This document shows positions 8,404 to 51,158 of a stretch of DNA of 64,000 nucleotides, piece after piece. The first letter of the stretch is position 1. Each line of letters starts with the position of its first letter. The DNA comes from Candidatus Tepidiaquacella proteinivora. GTDB taxonomy: Bacteria; Bacteroidota; Ignavibacteria; Tepidaquicellales; Tepidaquicellaceae. The stretch covers positions 1,435,501 to 1,499,500 of the forward strand of contig CP054675.1 in NCBI GenBank assembly GCA_013348845.1. Reading direction: 5' to 3'. The notes below the pieces were generated by a model. It was not told the DNA's origin and made no database searches. It saw only the letters and a list, made by a program, of their open reading frames with translations. A program made the translations under genes and the position numbers.

Positions 8404-9285
8404 ATGAAATCATTAACAAAAAGAGTATTTCTTTTCTTAATAACAAATTTATTTGTAGTTGTTACAATTGGGATTATAATTGGATTGTTAGGTATTCCTT
8501 TCGATGGGGCTGTGGGATTAATGGTAATTTCTTTTCTCTGGGGAATGGGAGGCGCTTTTATTTCTTTACTAATGAGCCGATGGCTGGCAAAACGAGCTTA
8601 TGGTATTAAGGTTATTGACCCTTTAAATTCTGCAGGTTATGAAAGAAAGTTATATGAAATGGTAAAGCGACTTTGTGAGAAAGAACAAATTCCTGTTCCG
8701 GAAGTAGGGATTTATGAATCTCCTGAACCGAATGCATTTGCAACCGGGGCAACGAAAAAATCATCAATAGTTGCATTTTCAACAGGTTTACTTAATATGA
8801 TGGATGACAAACAGGTTGAAGCTGTTGCAGGTCATGAAATCACCCATATTAGCAATGGAGATATGGTAACTTTGACACTATTGACAGGTGTGGCAAATGC
8901 GTTTGTAATATTTCTGGCAAGAATTATTGCAAGTGCAATAGATCAGGCTTTAAGAGGAGATGATGGAAGGGGAGGACTTGGATTTTTAGCATATTATGCT
9001 GTTGTATCAGTTCTTGAAATATTTCTGATGTTACTCGCATATATACCAATTTCAGCTTTTTCAAGATATCGGGAATATTCGGCAGATGCAGGTTCTGCTA
9101 AATTATCTAATCCAAATAATATGATTAGTGCGTTATCGGTTCTTGGAAGTTATACTGGTGAATTAGATAAGAAAAATTCTTTTTCAATAGCAAAGATTGA
9201 ATCAAAAAGAAGGGTATCGATTTTTGCTACTCATCCACCAATTGAGAAGAGAATAGAAAGACTTAAAACTATTAAAGTTTATTAA
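8404..9285 (+). CDS. htpX: HtpX membrane zinc metalloprotease
   Basis: HtpX is an inner-membrane protease that helps degrade misfolded membrane proteins. The length (293 residues) is the same as E. coli HtpX. Two N-terminal membrane segments (about 8-30 and 36-58) precede the soluble part. The zinc motif is 'GHEITHISNGD' with His144, Glu145 and His148. Two more hydrophobic segments follow, then 'SRYREYSADAGSA' with Glu224 as the expected third zinc ligand. The C-terminus has the family motif 'FATHPPIEKRIERL'. It begins with ATG at 8404. The gene is followed after 28 bases by a B12-binding radical SAM gene, and co-transcription is possible. Confidence 0.97.
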   Translation: MKSLTKRVFLFLITNLFVVVTIGIIIGLLGIPFDGAVGLMVISFLWGMGGAFISLLMSRWLAKRAYGIKVIDPLNSAGYERKLYEMVKRLCEKEQIPVPEVGIYESPEPNAFATGATKKSSIVAFSTGLLNMMDDKQVEAVAGHEITHISNGDMVTLTLLTGVANAFVIFLARIIASAIDQALRGDDGRGGLGFLAYYAVVSVLEIFLMLLAYIPISAFSRYREYSADAGSAKLSNPNNMISALSVLGSYTGELDKKNSFSIAKIESKRRVSIFATHPPIEKRIERLKTIKVY

Positions 9286-9313
9286 TAGTTTTATAAATAA
9301 ATAGGAACATATT

Positions 9314-10768
9314 TTGAAAATACTTCTTGTTGCAAACCCAAAGATGTATTTTGGGGTGGATTTACTATTCAGAATTCCAAATCTTGGATTGTGTTCACTT
9401 GCTTCAAATATTAATAGAAGGGAAAATGAAGTCAGGGTTATAGATTTAATTGTTGCAGGGAAAAACCCATTAAAATATTTTACCAAACTAATTAAAGATT
9501 ATTCTCCCGATATTGTTGGTTTTACCTGTATGGCTTTTCAGTATTCAGATACGATGAAATATATAAATCTTTTAAAAAAATTTAAACCAGAAACGATTAC
9601 TATACTTGGAGGATACTATCCTACTGTTGATTATGAAACTATAATAAATAGTGAAGATATAAATTTTATAGATTATATAATAATAGGAGAAGGGGAAACT
9701 ACTTTTAATAATCTCATAAATGCATTAAATGGTAAAAAAGATTTACACAACATTCCCGGTTTAATTTATAAAGACGGAAAAAACATTATAAAGAATCTGA
9801 ACCTTCAGCTTGCTAACCTTGATGAAATAAAATTACCTGACAGAAGCGTAAGATTAATAAAAAATGGTTTTTACTGCAACGGATATAAAGCAGATGCGGT
9901 TGAAACTTCAAGGGGCTGTGTTTATGACTGTGGTTTTTGTTGTATTAATAAGATGTATGGCAAAAGCTATAGAAAATTTAACTTTGAGCGAATCATATCA
10001 GATATAAAAGATGCCGTGAAATACGGAGCAAAAGCAATAATGTTTGTTGACGATAATATTACACTTGACGGTAATAGATTTTTAGAATTATGTTATAGAA
10101 TAAAAGAAGAAAAATTAAATCATATAAAGTATCTGATTCAGGCAAGTGTTAACGGAATTAAAAGAACTCCAGCATTACCAAAAGCAATGAGAGAAGCAGG
10201 AATAGAATGGGTTTTTCTTGGAATTGAAAATGCAAACAAAAATATGCTGAAATTTGTTAATAAAGATTCGCAGTTGGATCCATCAGATACTGAAGATGTT
10301 GTTAAATCATTAAACGAAAATAATATTATTACCATCGGTGGCTTTATACTTGGATATCCTGAAGATAATGAGGAATCGATAAGGTATAATTTCGAATTTG
10401 CGAAAAGAATTGGTATTGCAATACCTATCTTTAATATACTGACCCCATACCCGAATACAAAAGTTCGGGAAGAACTTATCAGGAAAAATCTAATAACAAA
10501 TCTAAATGATTATTCAAAATACGATTGTTGGGAGGTTAATATCAGGACCAAATATCTAACAACAGAACAAATATATAAAATCAGGCATGAACTTGAAGCA
10601 AGATATCCAATTGAATACGGAACACTACAAAAATTAATAAAGCGTTATCCATTATTTATGCTAAAGATTTTATGGCGATTTTTAACTTTTAAGCCAAAAG
10701 ATTTATATAAGTACTTTACTGGCGCAGGGACTTTCTGGGGCAAAAGAAAAACAGTTTATGCCCGATAA
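9314..10768 (+). CDS. B12-binding radical SAM protein
   Basis: This is a cobalamin-dependent radical SAM enzyme of unknown substrate. An N-terminal B12-binding Rossmann-type domain (about 1-150) starts 'KILLVANP' and contains 'PNLGLCSLAS', 'VIDLIV', 'PDIVGFTC', 'ITILGGYYPT' and 'IIGEGE'. The radical SAM core follows with Cys202, Cys206 and Cys209 in 'SRGCVYDCGFCC', then 'FVDDNI' and 'WVFLGIEN'. Such proteins commonly methylate unactivated carbons or rearrange lipids, tetrapyrroles or antibiotics. The start is TTG, supported by an AGGAA about 7 bases upstream and by alignment of the domain start; an internal ATG (residue 11) would cut into the first beta strand. It probably shares a transcript with htpX upstream. 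Confidence 0.88.
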   Translation: MKILLVANPKMYFGVDLLFRIPNLGLCSLASNINRRENEVRVIDLIVAGKNPLKYFTKLIKDYSPDIVGFTCMAFQYSDTMKYINLLKKFKPETITILGGYYPTVDYETIINSEDINFIDYIIIGEGETTFNNLINALNGKKDLHNIPGLIYKDGKNIIKNLNLQLANLDEIKLPDRSVRLIKNGFYCNGYKADAVETSRGCVYDCGFCCINKMYGKSYRKFNFERIISDIKDAVKYGAKAIMFVDDNITLDGNRFLELCYRIKEEKLNHIKYLIQASVNGIKRTPALPKAMREAGIEWVFLGIENANKNMLKFVNKDSQLDPSDTEDVVKSLNENNIITIGGFILGYPEDNEESIRYNFEFAKRIGIAIPIFNILTPYPNTKVREELIRKNLITNLNDYSKYDCWEVNIRTKYLTTEQIYKIRHELEARYPIEYGTLQKLIKRYPLFMLKILWRFLTFKPKDLYKYFTGAGTFWGKRKTVYAR

Positions 10769-39708: not shown

Positions 39709-40716
39709 ATGAGAATGATAAAATATCTATTAACGCTACTAATAATTGTAACAAGCAATCAATTATTTTCACAAGATAATGATTCAAACTTAAACATTGC
39801 ATATAATAAGTTACAAGAAGGAAAAACTTTAGAAGCGATATCAATTTTTGAAAATCATATTGCAAAAAATCCCAATGACACAAGAATATACCTGCAGCTT
39901 GCATATGAATATTTAAAAATTAACAATAAGGAAAAAGCAATAAAATATTTTGAGTATGTGCAAAAGAATTCCAAGAACACAGATGAAATTCAGGCTGCGA
40001 AAAAACAATTAGAATATATATCTCTAAATTCTGAATCAGGGAAAAAGCATTTCATCGATTTATATTCGTATAGTGTATATGATACATATCAAGAGAATTT
40101 TATATCAAATTTAATTTTAAGGTATAATAATCATATTATAGACAGATTATATGGTGGAATATATAGTGATATCTACACAGATACAAGAACTTCGAAAGAC
40201 TATATTTACAATGACAGATATGTTGAGGTAGGTGGATTTTTAAGATATAATATACTACGTAATTTAAGTATAGAATTAAGGGCTGGATATGTAAGAGAGA
40301 TTGATTTCAATAAAAATAGTTTCAACTTTAAACCCATTTTAAGTTTCTCTGATAGATTTGGGACTAAAAATTTGAGAGTAAACTTTTTTACTGATGTTTA
40401 TTCAGCAGCATTGTATGACCACAAATTTGAAAACTTTTTCGGACAGCTTTCACTAAGAGAGGTAGTAAGTTTTAAGGTAAATAAAAGTTCAAATTTTGAA
40501 ACTTATGTGAGACAGTCAGTATTAGGAGATTCAAAAAAGTTTGATTATAATAATTACCTTGAGTTAGGTGGAGGAGTTGCTTATACATTTAATTCAATTT
40601 ATTTACCGGCAATTTTTGTGGAAGCAACGAACAAATTTTATTTTCAGGGAAACAGAGAAAACAGTTTCCAGTTTAAAGCAGGTTTATTATTTAACTTTTA
40701 CAAATTCGTATGGTAG
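39709..40716 (+). CDS. TPR plus outer-membrane beta-barrel protein (NfrA-like exporter)
   Basis: This is a probable outer-membrane export protein for a polysaccharide. A signal peptide (1-22, ending 'LFSQ') precedes two TPR-like repeats (about 28-100: 'AYNKLQEGKTLEAISIFENHI', 'IYLQLAYEYLKINNKEKAIKYFEYV'). The rest (about 112-335) alternates amphipathic strands with Tyr/Phe and ends 'QFKAGLLFNFYKFVW', the aromatic terminus expected of an outer-membrane barrel. TPR-then-barrel is the layout of NfrA, PgaA and BcsC, although those are much longer. The downstream gene overlaps by seven bases and encodes an NfrB-like glycosyltransferase, which is the main reason for the NfrA-like call. Sequence similarity to NfrA itself is not demonstrable by eye. 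Confidence 0.72.
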   Translation: MRMIKYLLTLLIIVTSNQLFSQDNDSNLNIAYNKLQEGKTLEAISIFENHIAKNPNDTRIYLQLAYEYLKINNKEKAIKYFEYVQKNSKNTDEIQAAKKQLEYISLNSESGKKHFIDLYSYSVYDTYQENFISNLILRYNNHIIDRLYGGIYSDIYTDTRTSKDYIYNDRYVEVGGFLRYNILRNLSIELRAGYVREIDFNKNSFNFKPILSFSDRFGTKNLRVNFFTDVYSAALYDHKFENFFGQLSLREVVSFKVNKSSNFETYVRQSVLGDSKKFDYNNYLELGGGVAYTFNSIYLPAIFVEATNKFYFQGNRENSFQFKAGLLFNFYKFVW

Positions 40717-42167
40717 CAGAAATATTACAAATAATAGTTTGGATAATAGCAATAATACTAATAATTAGTGGCTTAGACGATTTCTTCGTTGATATATCTT
40801 ATTGGATATTCAGAAGAAAATATAAGAAACAATTACCCGAACTTTCAGAAATAAGAGAAGCTAAGGAAACTCCAATTGCACTGGTAATAGGTGCCTGGCA
40901 AGAGCACTCAGTCATTGGAAGAACTTTATCCATAGCATTAAATAAAATTCAATATAAAAATTACAGAATTTTTGTTGGTGTTTATCAAAATGATGAAAAG
41001 ACACAGGAAGAAGTAATGAAGTTTGCAAGTGCTGACCCGAGAGTAATTATGTGTATTAATCCAAAGAATGGACCAACATCAAAGGCAGATAATCTGAATA
41101 ATATTTTTAATGTGATAAAATATTACGAAAAAGCACACACTGAATTTAGCGTAATACTTATTCATGATTCTGAAGACTTCATTCATCCATATTCACTAAA
41201 ACTATATAATTATCTAATCTCTTACAAAGGCAACTATGCAGTCCAAATTCCGGTTGTACCGATAAAAAGCAAATTAGGTAAATTATTTCACAGAACTTAT
41301 TGTGATGCATTTGCAGAAATGCACAATAAAGAATTGATTGTAAGACAATCATTTGGAGCATATATTCCCTTTGCAGGTACCGGAATGGCATTTAACAGAA
41401 AGGTTTTCTATTATCTTGAGACTAATGATGAAAAATATTTAGAAGATATTAGTAATGATATAAAAAGTAATAAAATAAATACAACCCAAATCAGTACTAA
41501 GTATTGGGAAAATTTCTCAAGGATGACCGGGGATTTGAATCATAATGTAAGAATATTTAACGATTCGAATTTAACAGAAGATTATGAAATGGGTTTAAAA
41601 TTTCATAAAATAGGTTTAAAGACAGTTTTTGTGAATTTAATTATGAATAGTAATGGTACTCCCGATGCAGAAATAGCAACGCAAAGTTATTTCCCGAACA
41701 GTTTCTGGGGCGCTATAAAACAAAGGTCAAGATGGATTGCAGGTATTAATTTGCAAAATTGGAAAATCCATAAATGGAAAGGTTCCTTACTTACCAAATA
41801 CTTTCTAATGCGTGACAGAAAAGGAATTATATCAAGCTTTATTCTGCTTTTTTCTTATTTAGGTCTTATTTATTCTGTACTTAACATTATTGATGAGAAA
41901 TATGGTTGGGGAATTTTTCCACATATTATTGATACTAACTCAACTTTATGGTATGTATTAATGTTTTGTTTTTCATTTTTAATTATAAGACTTTTTCATA
42001 GATTACATTTTACATACAAATGGTACGGGTTAAAATATTCGATTTTCAGTGTATTTAGATTATTGCTCGATAATATAATAAACTTTTTTGCATCTTTAAG
42101 AGCTATTAAGATATACTATAAAATGAAAGACAAAGTCGTAATCTGGGACAAGACAGACCATTATTAA
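40710..42167 (+). CDS. nfrB: NfrB-like inner-membrane glycosyltransferase (no MshEN domain)
   Basis: This is a processive-type GT2 synthase in the inner membrane. A membrane helix (about 5-23) leads to 'SGLDDFFVDISYWIFRR', then 'ALVIGAWQEHSVIGR', 'YRIFVGVYQNDEKTQ', 'GPTSKADNLNN', 'ILIHDSEDFIHP', 'LTEDYEMGLKFHKIGLKT' and 'KQRSRWIAGINLQNW'. These follow E. coli NfrB point by point ('DDLFIDVVYW', 'PAWNE-GVIG', 'GPTSKADCLNN', 'LHDAEDVISP', 'TEDYDIGFRL', 'RQKSRWIIGI'). Three further membrane helices close the chain (about 372-460). E. coli NfrB continues into a C-terminal c-di-GMP-binding MshEN domain; this protein stops at 485 residues and lacks it. The ATG overlaps the end of the barrel gene, and a UDP-GlcNAc 2-epimerase gene follows. 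Confidence 0.87.
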   Translation: MVAEILQIIVWIIAIILIISGLDDFFVDISYWIFRRKYKKQLPELSEIREAKETPIALVIGAWQEHSVIGRTLSIALNKIQYKNYRIFVGVYQNDEKTQEEVMKFASADPRVIMCINPKNGPTSKADNLNNIFNVIKYYEKAHTEFSVILIHDSEDFIHPYSLKLYNYLISYKGNYAVQIPVVPIKSKLGKLFHRTYCDAFAEMHNKELIVRQSFGAYIPFAGTGMAFNRKVFYYLETNDEKYLEDISNDIKSNKINTTQISTKYWENFSRMTGDLNHNVRIFNDSNLTEDYEMGLKFHKIGLKTVFVNLIMNSNGTPDAEIATQSYFPNSFWGAIKQRSRWIAGINLQNWKIHKWKGSLLTKYFLMRDRKGIISSFILLFSYLGLIYSVLNIIDEKYGWGIFPHIIDTNSTLWYVLMFCFSFLIIRLFHRLHFTYKWYGLKYSIFSVFRLLLDNIINFFASLRAIKIYYKMKDKVVIWDKTDHY

Positions 42168-42207
42168 AATATCAAAAAAAATAAAATTTTTAAAACAATA
42201 TAAAAAG

Positions 42208-43359
42208 ATGATGAACCAAAAAATTTCAAAAGAAGAGTACAACGGTAAAAAAGTTATTCTAATTGTTTTTGGTACCAGACCAGAAATAATTAAACTTTTT
42301 ATTCTTCACAGAATTTTAAAAGAATCAGAAGAATTTTATCCAATATTATTCAACACTGCACAGCAAAAGATATCTTCTGATATATTACAGCACTTAAACA
42401 TTGATGTAGATATTTTGGGAAATACTTTACCTGACCGTTCCCCAGATTTGAATCAGTTCATCTCACATTTAATAAATGATTTTAATGAAAAATTTAATAG
42501 TCCAAATTCTATAATTGATAAAAAAGATATTGCCGGAGTAATTGTACAAGGAGATACAGCATCAGCATATACCGGTGCAATTTGGGCATTTATGAATCAA
42601 ATTCCTGTATTTCACGTTGAAGCCGGGTTAAGAACTCACGACCAGAATAATCCTTTTCCGGAAGAATTCTTCAGGGAATCTATAGCGAGAACATCTGCTC
42701 TTAATTTTTGTCCTTCTCACATAAGTTATGAAAATTTGATAAAGGAAGGTATTAGTCCTAAGAAAAACTATATCGTTGGTAATACGATTAATGATGCAAT
42801 TATCCACCTGATGGATAATAAGAAGATTAAGGAAACTAATCAAACCAATTATATTTTAAGTACATTACATAGGAGAGAAAATTGGAATCATGTAACAGAA
42901 TATGCTAAAATTCTTTATAATGTTCTCAGCAATGATATAAGGGATAAAAATTTATTGCATATCATACATCCAAATCCATTAGTCAAAGAAGGATTCAGTA
43001 AAGTTTTTAAGAAATACATACCGGAAAATCTTATTATTAAAGAACCTATACACGATTATTTTGAAATGCTTGGAATAGTAAAAAATAGCAATATTATTCT
43101 TACTGATTCAGGAGGATTACAAGAAGAATCATTATTCTTTAAGATTCCTTGCGGAATAATGAGGAAAGTTACAGAAAGACCGGAAGTTTTACAAAGAAAC
43201 GCAAAGCTCTTACCTTTTGAAAAAAATAAGGTCAGAGAATTTCTATTAGAATCAGATAAATACAAAATTAATGATAGTACACAATATGATTTTACTTACG
43301 GAGATGGAACAACAAGCTATCAGATATATGAAATTCTTAAAAGATTTTTCAGAGTTTAA
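42208..43359 (+). CDS. wecB: UDP-N-acetylglucosamine 2-epimerase
   Basis: This enzyme interconverts UDP-GlcNAc and UDP-ManNAc. The family motifs are all present: 'FGTRPEIIKL' near the N-terminus, 'VIVQGDTASAYTGA', 'FHVEAGLRTHDQNNPFPEEFFR', 'VGNTINDAI', 'LSTLHRRENW' and 'ILTDSGGLQEES'. At 383 residues it is the normal non-hydrolysing bacterial type (WecB/MnaA). It lies 40 bases after the NfrB-like gene on the same strand. WecB is required for the Nfr glycan in E. coli, so its position here argues that the locus makes a ManNAc-containing polymer; that is inference. ATG 42208 is followed by a second ATG, and either could serve. Confidence 0.95.
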   Translation: MMNQKISKEEYNGKKVILIVFGTRPEIIKLFILHRILKESEEFYPILFNTAQQKISSDILQHLNIDVDILGNTLPDRSPDLNQFISHLINDFNEKFNSPNSIIDKKDIAGVIVQGDTASAYTGAIWAFMNQIPVFHVEAGLRTHDQNNPFPEEFFRESIARTSALNFCPSHISYENLIKEGISPKKNYIVGNTINDAIIHLMDNKKIKETNQTNYILSTLHRRENWNHVTEYAKILYNVLSNDIRDKNLLHIIHPNPLVKEGFSKVFKKYIPENLIIKEPIHDYFEMLGIVKNSNIILTDSGGLQEESLFFKIPCGIMRKVTERPEVLQRNAKLLPFEKNKVREFLLESDKYKINDSTQYDFTYGDGTTSYQIYEILKRFFRV

Positions 43360-43377
43360 AACAGAAAGGAAATTTAA

Positions 43378-45387
43378 ATGAAAAAAATTAGATATATTTT
43401 ACTTACAATAATAATTACCATATTATTTACCAATTCTTATTCTCAAGAAATTACACCGAATATAAAAGTACCAAAGAACATTGATACCTATAAGTTTAAA
43501 CTATTACCTCTATATAAAAACGAGTTAGTAGATTTGCCGATAATTACTGCAGATTTTAAACTTACATTGCGAGACAATATCCAGCTTGATTGCTCAAAAT
43601 TTTATCCTGTTGAACCAAATCCATATCTTCCAAACGGATACCCTGTTGTAATTATGTTACATGGATATGGAGACAGAAAAGAAACGCTTGCAGAATTTGC
43701 AAGAGCACAAGCAGCTTATGGTTATGTCGTATATACATATAGTATGCGTGGTCAGGGAAATTCAGAAGGTTTATCAAATCTCATCAGTACCACAGAAGCA
43801 GACGATTTAATTGAATTTGTGAACTTTGTAAGAACAGATTTCAGTACAGGACTTGATACCAGTAAAATATTAATTATGGGCGGTTCTCAAGGAGGAATTA
43901 TTCCTTTTATGGCTGCATCAAAAGGTGGTTTAAAAGTAAATTCAATAATATCAGCATTAGCTTCACCAGAGTTTGCTACGAGCTGGATTGAAAATGGTAG
44001 TATTAAAATGACATTTTTATGGACAATATCTTATCCCAATGAAAATGCAAGATACACAAATGAAATAGATAATATGAGAAATTGGGTTTATCAATCAGGT
44101 AATAAAAACAGCAACTGGAATAAACTTGCAACAACTTTACCGAAGAATAGAGATTTTATGACTATTGTTCAGAATAATAAAATTCCAATACTACTTGAAA
44201 ACTCATGGCAGGATTATTTCTTTAATACATTAGGAAATATTAAAGCTATTCCATTGTTAACTTCAAACTACAGAATATATTTCGGTGCTGTTATGGGTCA
44301 TGGGGGGGATATTTCTGAATCGGAAAATCAATGGCATATGGAATTCTTTAATGAATGGTTCTATTATTATATATGGGGAATAGATAATGGAATATTGATA
44401 AGACCCAAATTTCATTATGCATATACAACTTATCCAAGAGAAAAAAATGCCTGGTCTTTTATTCATGACAGTTCAGCAGTATGGCCAATAACAGGGGTTA
44501 ATAGTGTAAAGTTTTATTTCTCAGATAGCAATAAATTAAATCCCAATAAAACACCAGTAACAGTATCTACAAAATCTTTCCTAAATAATGTTTTAGATAA
44601 GAGATTAACAATGATAGAAGCTGTTAATGAAGATTTTACCGGACCAATATTTGATTCTAAATTCAGAAAGGAATCGATATTTTTTGAGACAGCACCGCTG
44701 TCCAAAAATGTAAAAATGATTGGCACCCCAAAAATCAATCTAAAATACAAAGCAAGCGCAAATATATGTCAATATAACTTCCAGATATTCGAAATTAAAT
44801 CAGACGGAACGACGAATATGGTTACAAGAATAAATTACACAGATAGAAATTATACTGCCGGTGCAATAAAAACTGTTCTTATTAATGGTATTTCACATGC
44901 TCATATATTTCAAGCTGGGAGTAAAATAAGGGTGGTTGTTACTAATCTTGATACCTATTTACCACAAGATTCAGCATTTTTAGGTACTTGCCCCTATGTA
45001 TTACCAGTATTAGTAAAAAGTACCAATCATATATATTTAAGAGGTTCATATATTGATTTCCCGTTTGTAACAATTACTTCCGGAAATATTGTTGAAAATA
45101 CCACATCAAATATTAATTCAGAACCTATACTTGAACAGAATTATCCTAATCCTTTCAATCCAACAACAAATATCAGATTCACAATACCAAACAATTATTC
45201 CGGATTGGTTACTATAAAAATTTATGATATGACAGGGCGAGAGATACAACAGCTTGTTAATCAAAATATGAATGCCGGTACTTATGAAGTTGTTTGGAAT
45301 GCTTCAAATTATGCTTCAGGTGTATATTTTTATCAATTAACTGCTGGTAACTATAAAGAAATAAGAAAAATGATGTTAATCAAATAG
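43378..45387 (+). CDS. Secreted S15-like alpha/beta hydrolase with sorting tail
   Basis: This is an exported serine hydrolase. The signal peptide is residues 1-23. The alpha/beta-hydrolase domain has the oxyanion segment 'VIMLHGYGDRKE', 'YSMRGQGNSEG', the nucleophile elbow 'GGSQGG' (Ser170), and a probable catalytic His near 'MGHGGDIS'. A beta-rich domain (about 360-570) matches the C-terminal jelly roll of X-Pro dipeptidyl peptidase (S15/CocE) enzymes. Residues from about 588 form a sorting tail ('NYPNPFNPTTNIRF', 'IYDMTGREI', 'YASGVYFYQL'). A clear AAAGGAAA ribosome site precedes ATG 43378, 18 bases after wecB. It could act on the exported glycan (for example as an esterase) or on peptides or esters. 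Confidence 0.85.
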   Translation: MKKIRYILLTIIITILFTNSYSQEITPNIKVPKNIDTYKFKLLPLYKNELVDLPIITADFKLTLRDNIQLDCSKFYPVEPNPYLPNGYPVVIMLHGYGDRKETLAEFARAQAAYGYVVYTYSMRGQGNSEGLSNLISTTEADDLIEFVNFVRTDFSTGLDTSKILIMGGSQGGIIPFMAASKGGLKVNSIISALASPEFATSWIENGSIKMTFLWTISYPNENARYTNEIDNMRNWVYQSGNKNSNWNKLATTLPKNRDFMTIVQNNKIPILLENSWQDYFFNTLGNIKAIPLLTSNYRIYFGAVMGHGGDISESENQWHMEFFNEWFYYYIWGIDNGILIRPKFHYAYTTYPREKNAWSFIHDSSAVWPITGVNSVKFYFSDSNKLNPNKTPVTVSTKSFLNNVLDKRLTMIEAVNEDFTGPIFDSKFRKESIFFETAPLSKNVKMIGTPKINLKYKASANICQYNFQIFEIKSDGTTNMVTRINYTDRNYTAGAIKTVLINGISHAHIFQAGSKIRVVVTNLDTYLPQDSAFLGTCPYVLPVLVKSTNHIYLRGSYIDFPFVTITSGNIVENTTSNINSEPILEQNYPNPFNPTTNIRFTIPNNYSGLVTIKIYDMTGREIQQLVNQNMNAGTYEVVWNASNYASGVYFYQLTAGNYKEIRKMMLIK

Positions 45388-45638: not shown

Positions 45639-46781
45639 ATGAAACTTATATTGACACTTACAATTTTATTACAATTTCTTTTTTATTCCTCGGGGGTATT
45701 TTCACAAACTTCAGATACCAATAAGGTTTACGGCGTTACTATTGATGATGTTAGTAATTTAAGTGCTATTACAACTTCATTAAGTAAACTACCTAAAAAA
45801 ATGACAACAAGGGTTGTTTTTGATGAATGGATGCCAGCTACCTATTACTTAACACCCGTTCAAAGTATTCATCAGGTAAGTTACGTTATGGGAGAATTAC
45901 TTGATAGCTGGTGTTTTAGTCAATATAATTTAACACAATATACAAACCGTGTAAACGAATATGTAAATACTCTGGGGAATGATGTTGATATATGGGAATT
46001 CGGAAATGAAATAAACGGGGAATGGTTAGGAAATACTAATGATGTAATCCAAAAAATAACAGCAGCATTTCATATTTTAAAAGTAAATAATAAAACTACT
46101 GCACTAACTTTTTATTATAATTATGACTGCTGGGAAAATCCACAAAATGAAATGTTTTACTGGATAAATACTTATCTTCCTGATTATATGAAAAAAAGTA
46201 TAAATTATATATGGGTTTCATATTATGAAGACGATTGTAATAATTACCAACCGAACTGGCAAAAAGTATTTGATAGTTTAAGGGTTATTTTTCCAAACTC
46301 TAAAATAGGAATCGGAGAATGTGGAACAACAAAGGTTAATAAAAAAGAAGAATATATGCGAAGATACTACTCAATGAGTGTAACGACAAAAAATTATGTT
46401 GGTGGATACTTCTGGTGGTATTATAAACAGGATTGTGTGCCATATACAAAGTATTTATGGGGGGTTCTGAAAGATGTAATAAGTAATACCCCTTCACCAT
46501 ATATAACAACAGATACCTGCAAGTTAGCATCAATTAAAAACTACCCTAATCCTTTTAACCCAAAAACAAAAATATTTTATTCCATACCTTACAATTGCAA
46601 TGTCAGGATTACTCTATATGATATAACCGGAAAAGAAATTACAATACTTTTAAATGAATTTAAAAATAAAGGAGAATACATCTTGGATTTTGATGCTTCT
46701 AATTTAACAAGCGGGGTATATTTTTATAAACTGGAATTTTCAGGCAATGTAATTACAGAAAAAATGATACTAATGAAATAG
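45639..46781 (+). CDS. Secreted glycoside-hydrolase-like (clan GH-A type) protein with sorting tail
   Basis: This is an exported protein of 380 residues that looks like a TIM-barrel glycosidase. After the signal peptide (1-23, ending 'VFSQ') the sequence has 'DIWEFGNEINGEW', in which Glu124 after Asn is the typical acid/base position of clan GH-A. 'SKIGIGECGTTK' supplies Glu227 as a likely nucleophile on a later strand. 'FWWYYKQD' is an aromatic stretch suited to sugar binding. The tail from about 297 carries 'NYPNPFNPKTKIF', 'LYDITGKEI' and 'LTSGVYFYKL'. I cannot name the GH family or substrate. A free-standing transcription unit is likely, as a terminator precedes it. Confidence 0.75.
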   Translation: MKLILTLTILLQFLFYSSGVFSQTSDTNKVYGVTIDDVSNLSAITTSLSKLPKKMTTRVVFDEWMPATYYLTPVQSIHQVSYVMGELLDSWCFSQYNLTQYTNRVNEYVNTLGNDVDIWEFGNEINGEWLGNTNDVIQKITAAFHILKVNNKTTALTFYYNYDCWENPQNEMFYWINTYLPDYMKKSINYIWVSYYEDDCNNYQPNWQKVFDSLRVIFPNSKIGIGECGTTKVNKKEEYMRRYYSMSVTTKNYVGGYFWWYYKQDCVPYTKYLWGVLKDVISNTPSPYITTDTCKLASIKNYPNPFNPKTKIFYSIPYNCNVRITLYDITGKEITILLNEFKNKGEYILDFDASNLTSGVYFYKLEFSGNVITEKMILMK

Positions 46782-49072: not shown

Positions 49073-50740
49073 TTAATTAATTATTGTAATTTTAATAACT
49101 TTATTATAAAAATTGTTATAAAATCTTATGAAATAAATTCCTGTGGAAAGGTTCATACTTTCTGCATCTATTAAATATTCATACACACCAGCACTTAAGA
49201 ATCCGCTGAATAAATCTGAAATTCTTCTTCCTGAAATATCATAAAGAGCCAGATTCATAATTTCAGAATTATTTTCAGGTATTGAAATTCTGATTAATGA
49301 TCTCGAATTAAAAGGATTGGGGAAATTCTGACTTATTTCATAACATATCGGGGTTGAAAAATTAGTTTTTTTAATTCCGACATTTGAATTTGAAAATCCT
49401 TTAAGTTCAACTGTAATTGTTGTATCAGAATTAACAATAGTCAGAATGCCGTTATAAGTTTGATTAATAGCAGTTGGTTTAAATTTTATTTTTGCAAAAC
49501 CTAATTCACCTGCATTTACAGAAGTTGGAAATGATTCTACAATAAATTCCTGCATATTAGAATAAACAGAATTTATATTAAGTAAAGAGTTTCCATAATT
49601 CATAATTGCAAGATAATAGCTTAAAGTATCATTTACTGCTATTGTATCATATCTGATAATAAAAGGTGATACAGTTATTTTACCTTTAAAAATAGTAGGT
49701 GCAATCATATAAAAACTTCTTATCCTTTCAACAAATTCAGGATGATCTATGAAAGGATTGAATACATTTTGAAAGGATTTAATTCTTTGATTCCTTATTC
49801 TTTCTCTCTGGTCAACTATATCGGTAAAATTCCATAGTCTGAGCACATTTTCTTCTTTTTGTGCAAGATAGCTTCCCTGATTACCAAACCTAATAACAAA
49901 ATAAAAAATAGACCTTGCAACATTTCCTTTATGTACATCTCTTGGTTCGAACACAATTTCATTCTGGTAATCATATCCCCTTTTTGACCCACCTTGCTGC
50001 CATGTAATATTTGAAACAACAATACCAAAATGGTAGTTGGATCTTGCATTATTCGCTACAGAAAGTGTAGGATATAAATGATATAAATCACTTCTCATAG
50101 GTTCAGCAGAATTAAAATAACTCTGTGGCCAGGTGTGTTCTGTATCAAATCCTTGATTTTGTGCTTCTGTTCTATTCGCCGCCTTTATTTTAACACCAGT
50201 ATAGACACATTCAATCGTATCATCATTATTATAATCATCTATATATTCAAACATTTTATCTCTCGCAAGATTGTATCCGAGTGAAATATAATTTTGCAAT
50301 GTAAAATTATACAGAGCAGATTTTAATTCTTCATTTATCAATCCCTGAGTAAAACTATATAAAGTATCAGGATATTTTGCAGTACCTAATGAATAAAAAA
50401 CAATTGAATATGGTAAACCATCATTTTCAAAAATTAGGAAATCTCTATAAGTAATATTTTGATTTGTTCCAAAATAAACACTAACAAGAACGCTGTCAAA
50501 GGGATTAACTGCAAAAGGAGAAAAGTTAAAAAAGAACTTCGATGTCGTTGTACGAAATGAATTAATAAAAACAGTTTCAGAAGTCGGGTTTTTAAGATAG
50601 AAATACCGGGGTGTTTGTGTATTTGTTAAAACAGTATCGTAATTTATTAAAACAGGTATATATTGAGAAAAAAGGTTATTATAAAATGAAAAGAATAAAA
50701 TAACAAAAAGAATTTTCATAAAAATTTTATGTGAAATCAT
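49073..50740 (-). CDS. Secreted endonuclease I-family nuclease with sorting tail
   Basis: This is an extracellular nuclease of the EndA/NucM (endonuclease I, PF04231) type. From the ATG at 50740, a signal peptide ends 'NLFSQ'. An N-terminal beta domain (about 30-115) precedes the nuclease domain, which contains 'YNLARDKMFEYID', 'FDTEHTWPQSYF' (His is the general base and part of the beta-beta-alpha metal site), 'MRSDLYHLYPT' and 'NNARSNYHFG'. A later beta domain has 'ISVNAGELGFAKIKF'-like features of choice-of-anchor domains. A sorting tail closes the protein ('NFPNPFNSRSLIRI', 'LYDISGRRI', 'LSTGIYFIRF'). An upstream ATG (50776) would overlap the preceding gene and add 12 non-signal residues, so I prefer 50740. 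Confidence 0.88.
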   Translation of the reverse strand: MISHKIFMKILFVILFFSFYNNLFSQYIPVLINYDTVLTNTQTPRYFYLKNPTSETVFINSFRTTTSKFFFNFSPFAVNPFDSVLVSVYFGTNQNITYRDFLIFENDGLPYSIVFYSLGTAKYPDTLYSFTQGLINEELKSALYNFTLQNYISLGYNLARDKMFEYIDDYNNDDTIECVYTGVKIKAANRTEAQNQGFDTEHTWPQSYFNSAEPMRSDLYHLYPTLSVANNARSNYHFGIVVSNITWQQGGSKRGYDYQNEIVFEPRDVHKGNVARSIFYFVIRFGNQGSYLAQKEENVLRLWNFTDIVDQRERIRNQRIKSFQNVFNPFIDHPEFVERIRSFYMIAPTIFKGKITVSPFIIRYDTIAVNDTLSYYLAIMNYGNSLLNINSVYSNMQEFIVESFPTSVNAGELGFAKIKFKPTAINQTYNGILTIVNSDTTITVELKGFSNSNVGIKKTNFSTPICYEISQNFPNPFNSRSLIRISIPENNSEIMNLALYDISGRRISDLFSGFLSAGVYEYLIDAESMNLSTGIYFIRFYNNFYNKVIKITIIN

Positions 50741-50756
50741 TTTAGAAAATTTAAAC

Positions 50757-51158
50757 CTACAATCCGGGGAATTCATTATGATTAATAATTACTTCAACAT
50801 CAGGAAATTCATCTTTAATGAAAGAAGCGGTTTTTTCCGCTGCATAAACGGAACGATGCATACCCCCCGTACAACCAAAAGAAATCATTAAATCTGTAAA
50901 TCCTTTCTGGAGATAATTATTAACTACTTTACCTATTATGTTGAAAACATTATGCAGAAATTCCTGCATATCCTTTTGTTTATCAAGGAACTCAATAACT
51001 TCCTTATCTTTACCGGTAAGATTCCAGTATTGTTCAATCTGTCCCGGATTTATTATAAATCTGCAATCAAAGACAAATCCCCCACCGTTTCCAGTTTCAT
51101 CAACCGGAATACTTCCATATATATAACTAAAAGAATTTACTCTTACTACTAATGCCAA
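50757..51158 (-). CDS. Stand-alone RapZ C-terminal domain protein
   Basis: In E. coli RapZ is an RNA-binding adapter that controls GlmZ and hence GlmS, linked to cell-wall amino sugars. Only its C-terminal domain is present here, as a 133-residue protein: 'FSYIYGSIP', 'FVFDCRFIINPG', 'LTGKDKEVIEFL' and 'ISFGCTGGMHRSVYAAEKTASFI'. The N-terminal P-loop kinase-like domain is absent. Stand-alone copies are known from Bacteroidota. The start is TTG at 51158, as the frame has a stop shortly upstream and no ATG before the conserved part. It is followed by the nuclease gene after 16 bases, so the two may share a transcript. Confidence 0.88.
   Translation of the reverse strand: MALVVRVNSFSYIYGSIPVDETGNGGGFVFDCRFIINPGQIEQYWNLTGKDKEVIEFLDKQKDMQEFLHNVFNIIGKVVNNYLQKGFTDLMISFGCTGGMHRSVYAAEKTASFIKDEFPDVEVIINHNEFPGL

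Follow-up and report, generated by a model that had tools for sequence, protein, structure and literature searches.

A four-gene operon with an NfrB-type glycosyltransferase

The window, which is the entire 64,000-nucleotide stretch of DNA from Candidatus Tepidiaquacella proteinivora that we analyzed, comes from a 2.4 Mb genome in one contig. Four open reading frames on its forward strand form one tight operon. They encode a TPR protein with a predicted 12-stranded outer-membrane barrel, which is a putative glycan exporter (39709-40716, + strand; 335 amino acids; TPR_19, E = 5e-7); an NfrB-type membrane GT2 polysaccharide synthase without an MshEN domain (40710-42167, + strand; 485 amino acids); a non-hydrolysing UDP-GlcNAc 2-epimerase of the WecB/NfrC type (42208-43359, + strand; 383 amino acids); and a secreted S15/CocE-like alpha/beta hydrolase with a T9SS sorting tail (43378-45387, + strand; 669 amino acids). 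The barrel gene overlaps the glycosyltransferase (GT) gene by 7 bases, and 40 bases separate the GT gene from the epimerase gene. An earlier, sequence-only reading of this DNA had given these gene positions, the overlap, and the gap, and we found all four reading frames there. (Two other genes nearby also encode secreted proteins with T9SS tails. The product of 45639-46781, + strand, adjoins the operon only in the window genome and its congener, and 49073-50776, - strand, encodes an Endonuclease I-type nuclease with an ASH-like domain.)

In E. coli, the N4 receptor glycan requires NfrA, NfrB, and WecB (PMC8669469, PMC8669472). In a direct comparison, residues 6-484 of the window GT align with residues 15-475 of NfrB from E. 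coli K-12 (286 bits, 34%, E = 5e-93). The homology runs from the GPTSKAD motif to RSRW, so the proposed match to NfrB holds over the region on which it had been staked. The window GT also matches GT2 (2.7e-35; Pfam/NCBIfam). The NfrB model from NCBIfam (NF008411) gives 329 bits, which is below its curated cut-off of 1170. The best NCBIfam model is PRK14716.1-3, at 388 bits, just under the cut-off of 409; it describes a 486-residue glycosyl transferase family protein, similar in length to the window GT, with no assigned function.

The motif comparison and the NfrB alignment locate all of the expected motifs: the DxD-type motif HDSED (residues 152-156; 41163-41177, + strand), the catalytic TED (residues 289-291; 41574-41582, + strand), and QRSRW, a QxxRW motif (residues 338-342; 41721-41735, + strand). 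The membrane region that is homologous to that of NfrB is present as well. The AlphaFold model of the GT is poor (pLDDT 48), and a sequence search against solved structures found no homologue. The literature that we found on NfrB does not mention Bacteroidetes, which is not proof of absence.

The window GT ends at the point where the MshEN-bearing half of NfrB starts, and Pfam finds no MshEN in it, which bears out the claim that it lacks the c-di-GMP domain. It had also been proposed that control must therefore differ at this locus. This lack of c-di-GMP control does not set the locus apart, because no GGDEF domain was found in any of the 43 genomes of the order. (The same search was positive in E. 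coli and in seven other control genomes.) An MshEN-less GT is therefore expected in this order and is not a peculiarity of the operon. The sole MshEN match of the window genome lies elsewhere, at 202519-202758. From these data, we predict that synthesis at the window locus is not under c-di-GMP control.

The barrel protein, the epimerase, and the hydrolase

The barrel protein resembles NfrA in architecture, with a TPR and a barrel, but not in sequence. Its best BLASTP match to E. coli NfrA has E = 0.053 and covers a TPR-like stretch only. Also, NfrA has a 16-stranded barrel, while the AlphaFold model of the window protein has 12 strands (pLDDT 78, from a shallow alignment). We therefore use the name NfrA by analogy only. 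A Foldseek search with the model returned many barrels, including the E. coli cellulose exporter BcsC (9b8a) and NanC. The barrel gene lies directly upstream of the GT gene in relatives from the window's family and from its sister family, so the proposed association of these two genes is conserved. The gene set as a whole is also kept throughout the order. The 335-residue, two-TPR exporter had been described as a minimal version, but it is at one end of a range of 325 to 563 amino acids among relatives.

The epimerase scores 228 bits against the wecB model (TIGR00236), above the cut-off of 210, and it shares an operon with the GT. Both observations agree with its earlier annotation as a UDP-GlcNAc 2-epimerase. 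Linkage of nfrB to a WecB-type epimerase is also known from other bacteria (PMC8669469). The epimerase gene comes next in most loci from the two families, and it is missing beside some of the split GT loci described below (L036-L040).

The hydrolase matches S15, PepX_C, and the T9SS sorting tail in Pfam and NCBIfam. It had been put forward as a glycan-modifying partner of the operon. In the window's family, almost every locus that has the barrel gene has the hydrolase gene immediately after the operon; in most loci of the sister family, it is no more than a few kb away. This conserved linkage indicates that it is a real partner by position, but its proposed effect on the glycan is a functional prediction. 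The hydrolase might instead be unrelated to the glycan; for instance, it could be a peptidase, or it could serve nutrient uptake as an esterase. S15/CocE-like families have many substrates, and several genomes carry extra copies elsewhere. The conserved position argues against this possibility, as does the conservation of catalytic-type motifs (GGSQGG, WQD, and GHGGD are kept in nearly all copies), and we consider an unrelated role possible but doubtful.

The glycosyltransferase is split in related genera

In relatives from the same family, the window GT matches two pieces, corresponding to residues 1-242 and 278-485, that lie in separate open frames, with about 1-2.4 kb between them. In 14 of the family's genomes, which represent 8 genera, a pair of adjacent genes encodes the GT, and the break falls immediately ahead of the catalytic TED. 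None of these 14 genomes has an unsplit copy, and where the locus is duplicated, the duplicates are split too. Within the family, an unsplit GT occurs only in the window genome and in G002, its congener. The GT is in one frame in genomes of the sister family and of those other families of the class that gave a strong match; such short GTs, of about 445-495 amino acids, are found throughout the class, and the GT of the sister family has 444.

A representative pair lies at L034:6825-8678 and 8699-10216 (- strand), and others are in L035, L036, L037, L038-L045, and L048-L051. The N-half protein contains the HDxED-bearing part of the GT; after it, most copies have a linker, a single transmembrane helix, and a SPOR-like domain. 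The C-half protein begins with a coiled-coil head, which in many genera starts with DUF772, and continues with the half of the GT that has TED, QxxRW, and transmembrane helices. Every complete pair has HDxED on the N-half and TED and Q(R/K)SRW on the C-half. In intact pairs, the two genes are 6-60 nucleotides apart and have their own start codons. We found no introns in the split loci (no Rfam match).

There are several variants of this arrangement. L041, L043, L045, L049, and L050 have a second, paralogous split pair without a neighboring barrel gene or epimerase; the N-half tails of these pairs have a transmembrane helix and no SPOR match. In genus g3 (L037:8117-10891, + strand), the C-half has 924 amino acids, with a very long coiled-coil head, and the N-half tail is short and lacks both the transmembrane helix and SPOR. 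In genus g6 (L052:6684-9243, - strand), a C-half has no adjoining N-half and is preceded by a 368-residue protein with a coiled coil, a transmembrane helix, and a SPOR-like domain but no GT part. In G007, one C-half lacks an adjoining N-half.

If the split copies were decaying pseudogenes, then only the intact GTs would work. The frames are indeed broken in two contigs from genus g5 (L053 and L059). These breaks are probably assembly faults, because they lie beside runs of N. Moreover, dN/dS is just 0.008-0.035 in both GT halves, compared to 0.06-0.23 in the tails and heads (considering only comparisons with unsaturated dS). Such low values in both halves argue against decay. The active-site motifs are kept in all complete pairs, across 8 genera, and the duplicated loci are split as well. 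Given the selection and motif data, which contradict it, we consider decay very improbable. Instead, both halves are under strong purifying selection with their motifs kept. (The B1 and B2 distances also correlate, with r = 0.94, in part because of shared ancestry.)

Origin of the added heads and tails

Pfam's DUF772 matches 6 of 8 heads, with a best E-value of 4.6e-10 and most matches near or below the cut-off. An HMM of the heads gives 65.8 bits on the N-terminal part of a genuine IS5-type transposase from the same family, while the best of 2000 shuffles reached 10. (This transposase, in G007, is in two frames at L140:3404-4415, - strand, and is homologous to the C-half heads.) Away from the split loci, we did not find the DUF772 head except in this real transposase.

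The SPOR matches of the N-half tails have E-values of 3e-4 to 0.02 in Pfam, which are near or below the cut-offs. The tail with the transmembrane helix and SPOR is homologous across most N-half copies. A longer SPOR-type protein from the sister family, whose N terminus we read as HU-like, is weakly similar to this tail in its C-terminal part (E down to 4e-6). Taken from sequence comparisons, the likely explanation is that a transposase-bearing rearrangement broke the GT gene and fused both of the broken ends to other reading frames.

Is the window glycosyltransferase ancestral or rejoined?

Residues 239-281 of the window GT (41424-41552, + strand) form a loop of 43 residues, about 40 more than in E. 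coli NfrB or in the GTs of the sister family, exactly at the site of the split in relatives from the family. With these extra residues at the family's split site, the window GT is derived relative to the 444-residue GT of the sister family. The earlier suggestion that this operon is a "minimal, possibly ancestral" version is thus unproven.

The location of the loop would make sense if the family's ancestor already had the split and the window genus (g1) later healed its GT, with the 40-residue loop as a scar. In trees of RpoB (support of 100/99) and of RpoB plus RpoC (SH-aLRT of 100), g1 lies inside a clade of genera with split GTs, and another group with split GTs falls outside the clade that holds g1. 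This nesting suggests re-fusion. Also, the two split groups (g4, g15, and g12 versus g3, g9, and g5) have homologous DUF772 heads, which argues for a single split event, as expected under re-fusion. But the trees for the operon's own genes oppose the nesting: g1 is sister to all split copies in the GT tree (85/85; p-AU for nesting of 0.048) and is beside all split copies in the operon tree (69/71; p-AU of 0.041). These gene trees seem to disagree, weakly, with the placement of g1 by RpoB and RpoC. A caveat is that g1 has a long branch, which may distort the trees. Furthermore, the loop has no similarity to the tails or the heads of the split genes. We found no remnants of the relatives' inserts in it, and shuffled inserts matched or exceeded the scores of the real ones in 413-900 of 1000 trials. 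On this evidence, re-fusion is a serious possibility whose chance we put below even.

The GT and operon trees are easier to explain if g1 kept the unsplit GT and enlarged its loop, while a single split occurred elsewhere and transfer of the operon carried it through the family. To fit the RpoB and RpoC trees, this account needs either horizontal transfer or deep lineage sorting. We give it nearly an even chance. As for the re-fused form, its complete history can be told only tentatively. A transposase-bearing insertion would have split the synthase of the ancestor and recruited SPOR; the two-part enzyme would have persisted in the family; and only this genus would have rejoined the halves, with a 40-residue scar left next to the catalytic base.

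Discussion

Overall, the window probably contains an MshEN-less, NfrB-type operon for exopolysaccharide synthesis and export, whose GT has two subunits in most relatives from the family and is unsplit in the window. We propose that the epimerase makes UDP-ManNAc. The GT2 in the inner membrane would polymerize UDP-ManNAc, or a related UDP-sugar, and feed the polymer across the membrane, and the TPR-barrel protein would export it. The T9SS-exported hydrolase may then modify or trim the polymer outside the cell; this is the least certain step. In the relatives, the gene was apparently broken in the loop just before TED. The N-half would have gained a transmembrane helix and a SPOR-like tail, which probably anchors it to peptidoglycan, and the C-half would have gained a head from the N-terminal domain of an IS5-type transposase along with coiled coils. 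Both halves are predicted to be anchored in the inner membrane, where they would have to reassemble into one active site. Several observations count against this reading: the barrel protein shows no sequence homology to NfrA, the AlphaFold model of the GT is poor, some split loci have no neighboring epimerase, a C-half in G007 has no neighboring N-half, and the SPOR and most DUF772 scores do not clearly pass the Pfam cut-offs.

Compared to the E. coli system (NfrB, NfrA, and YbcH, with WecB), the window has a GT2 synthase that is homologous along the whole GT and transmembrane part of NfrB, and its operon also includes a TPR-barrel outer-membrane protein and a WecB-type epimerase. No gene of the operon was recognized as encoding YbcH. 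The differences are that the window GT lacks the MshEN/c-di-GMP half, that the gene order is barrel, GT, epimerase, and hydrolase, including a T9SS hydrolase, and that the GT is split in relatives from the window's family. The window operon is Nfr-like, c-di-GMP-free, and ordinary in kind. What is unusual is the fission of the GT2 catalytic domain in its closest relatives.

There are known parallels for parts of this arrangement. ALG13/ALG14 is a heterodimeric UDP-GlcNAc transferase, that is, a glycosyltransferase made of two polypeptides (PMC9527342), but it is not from the same GT family, and the enzyme here is a GT2 with the cut inside its catalytic domain, next to TED. In the insertional fission of mitochondrial cox2, an inserted sequence divided the gene into complementary ones, and their products apparently assemble as a heterodimer (PMC5374615). 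Here, in contrast, the protein is a bacterial GT2 and the inserted sequence appears to have come partly from a transposase domain and partly from a SPOR protein. Among the papers listed by a literature search, none used the phrase "split glycosyltransferase," which is not proof of absence.

These results extend NfrB-type glycan synthesis to a bacterial order without detectable GGDEF-dependent synthesis of c-di-GMP. Judging from the sequences, the relatives of the window genome would have a natural two-polypeptide GT2 polysaccharide synthase, cut within its catalytic domain and joined to added domains, some derived from a transposase and others of a peptidoglycan-binding type. The unsplit GT from the window allows a direct comparison with these split relatives. 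This makes it possible to test how a membrane synthase tolerates fission by its active site, and whether such fission is naturally reversible.
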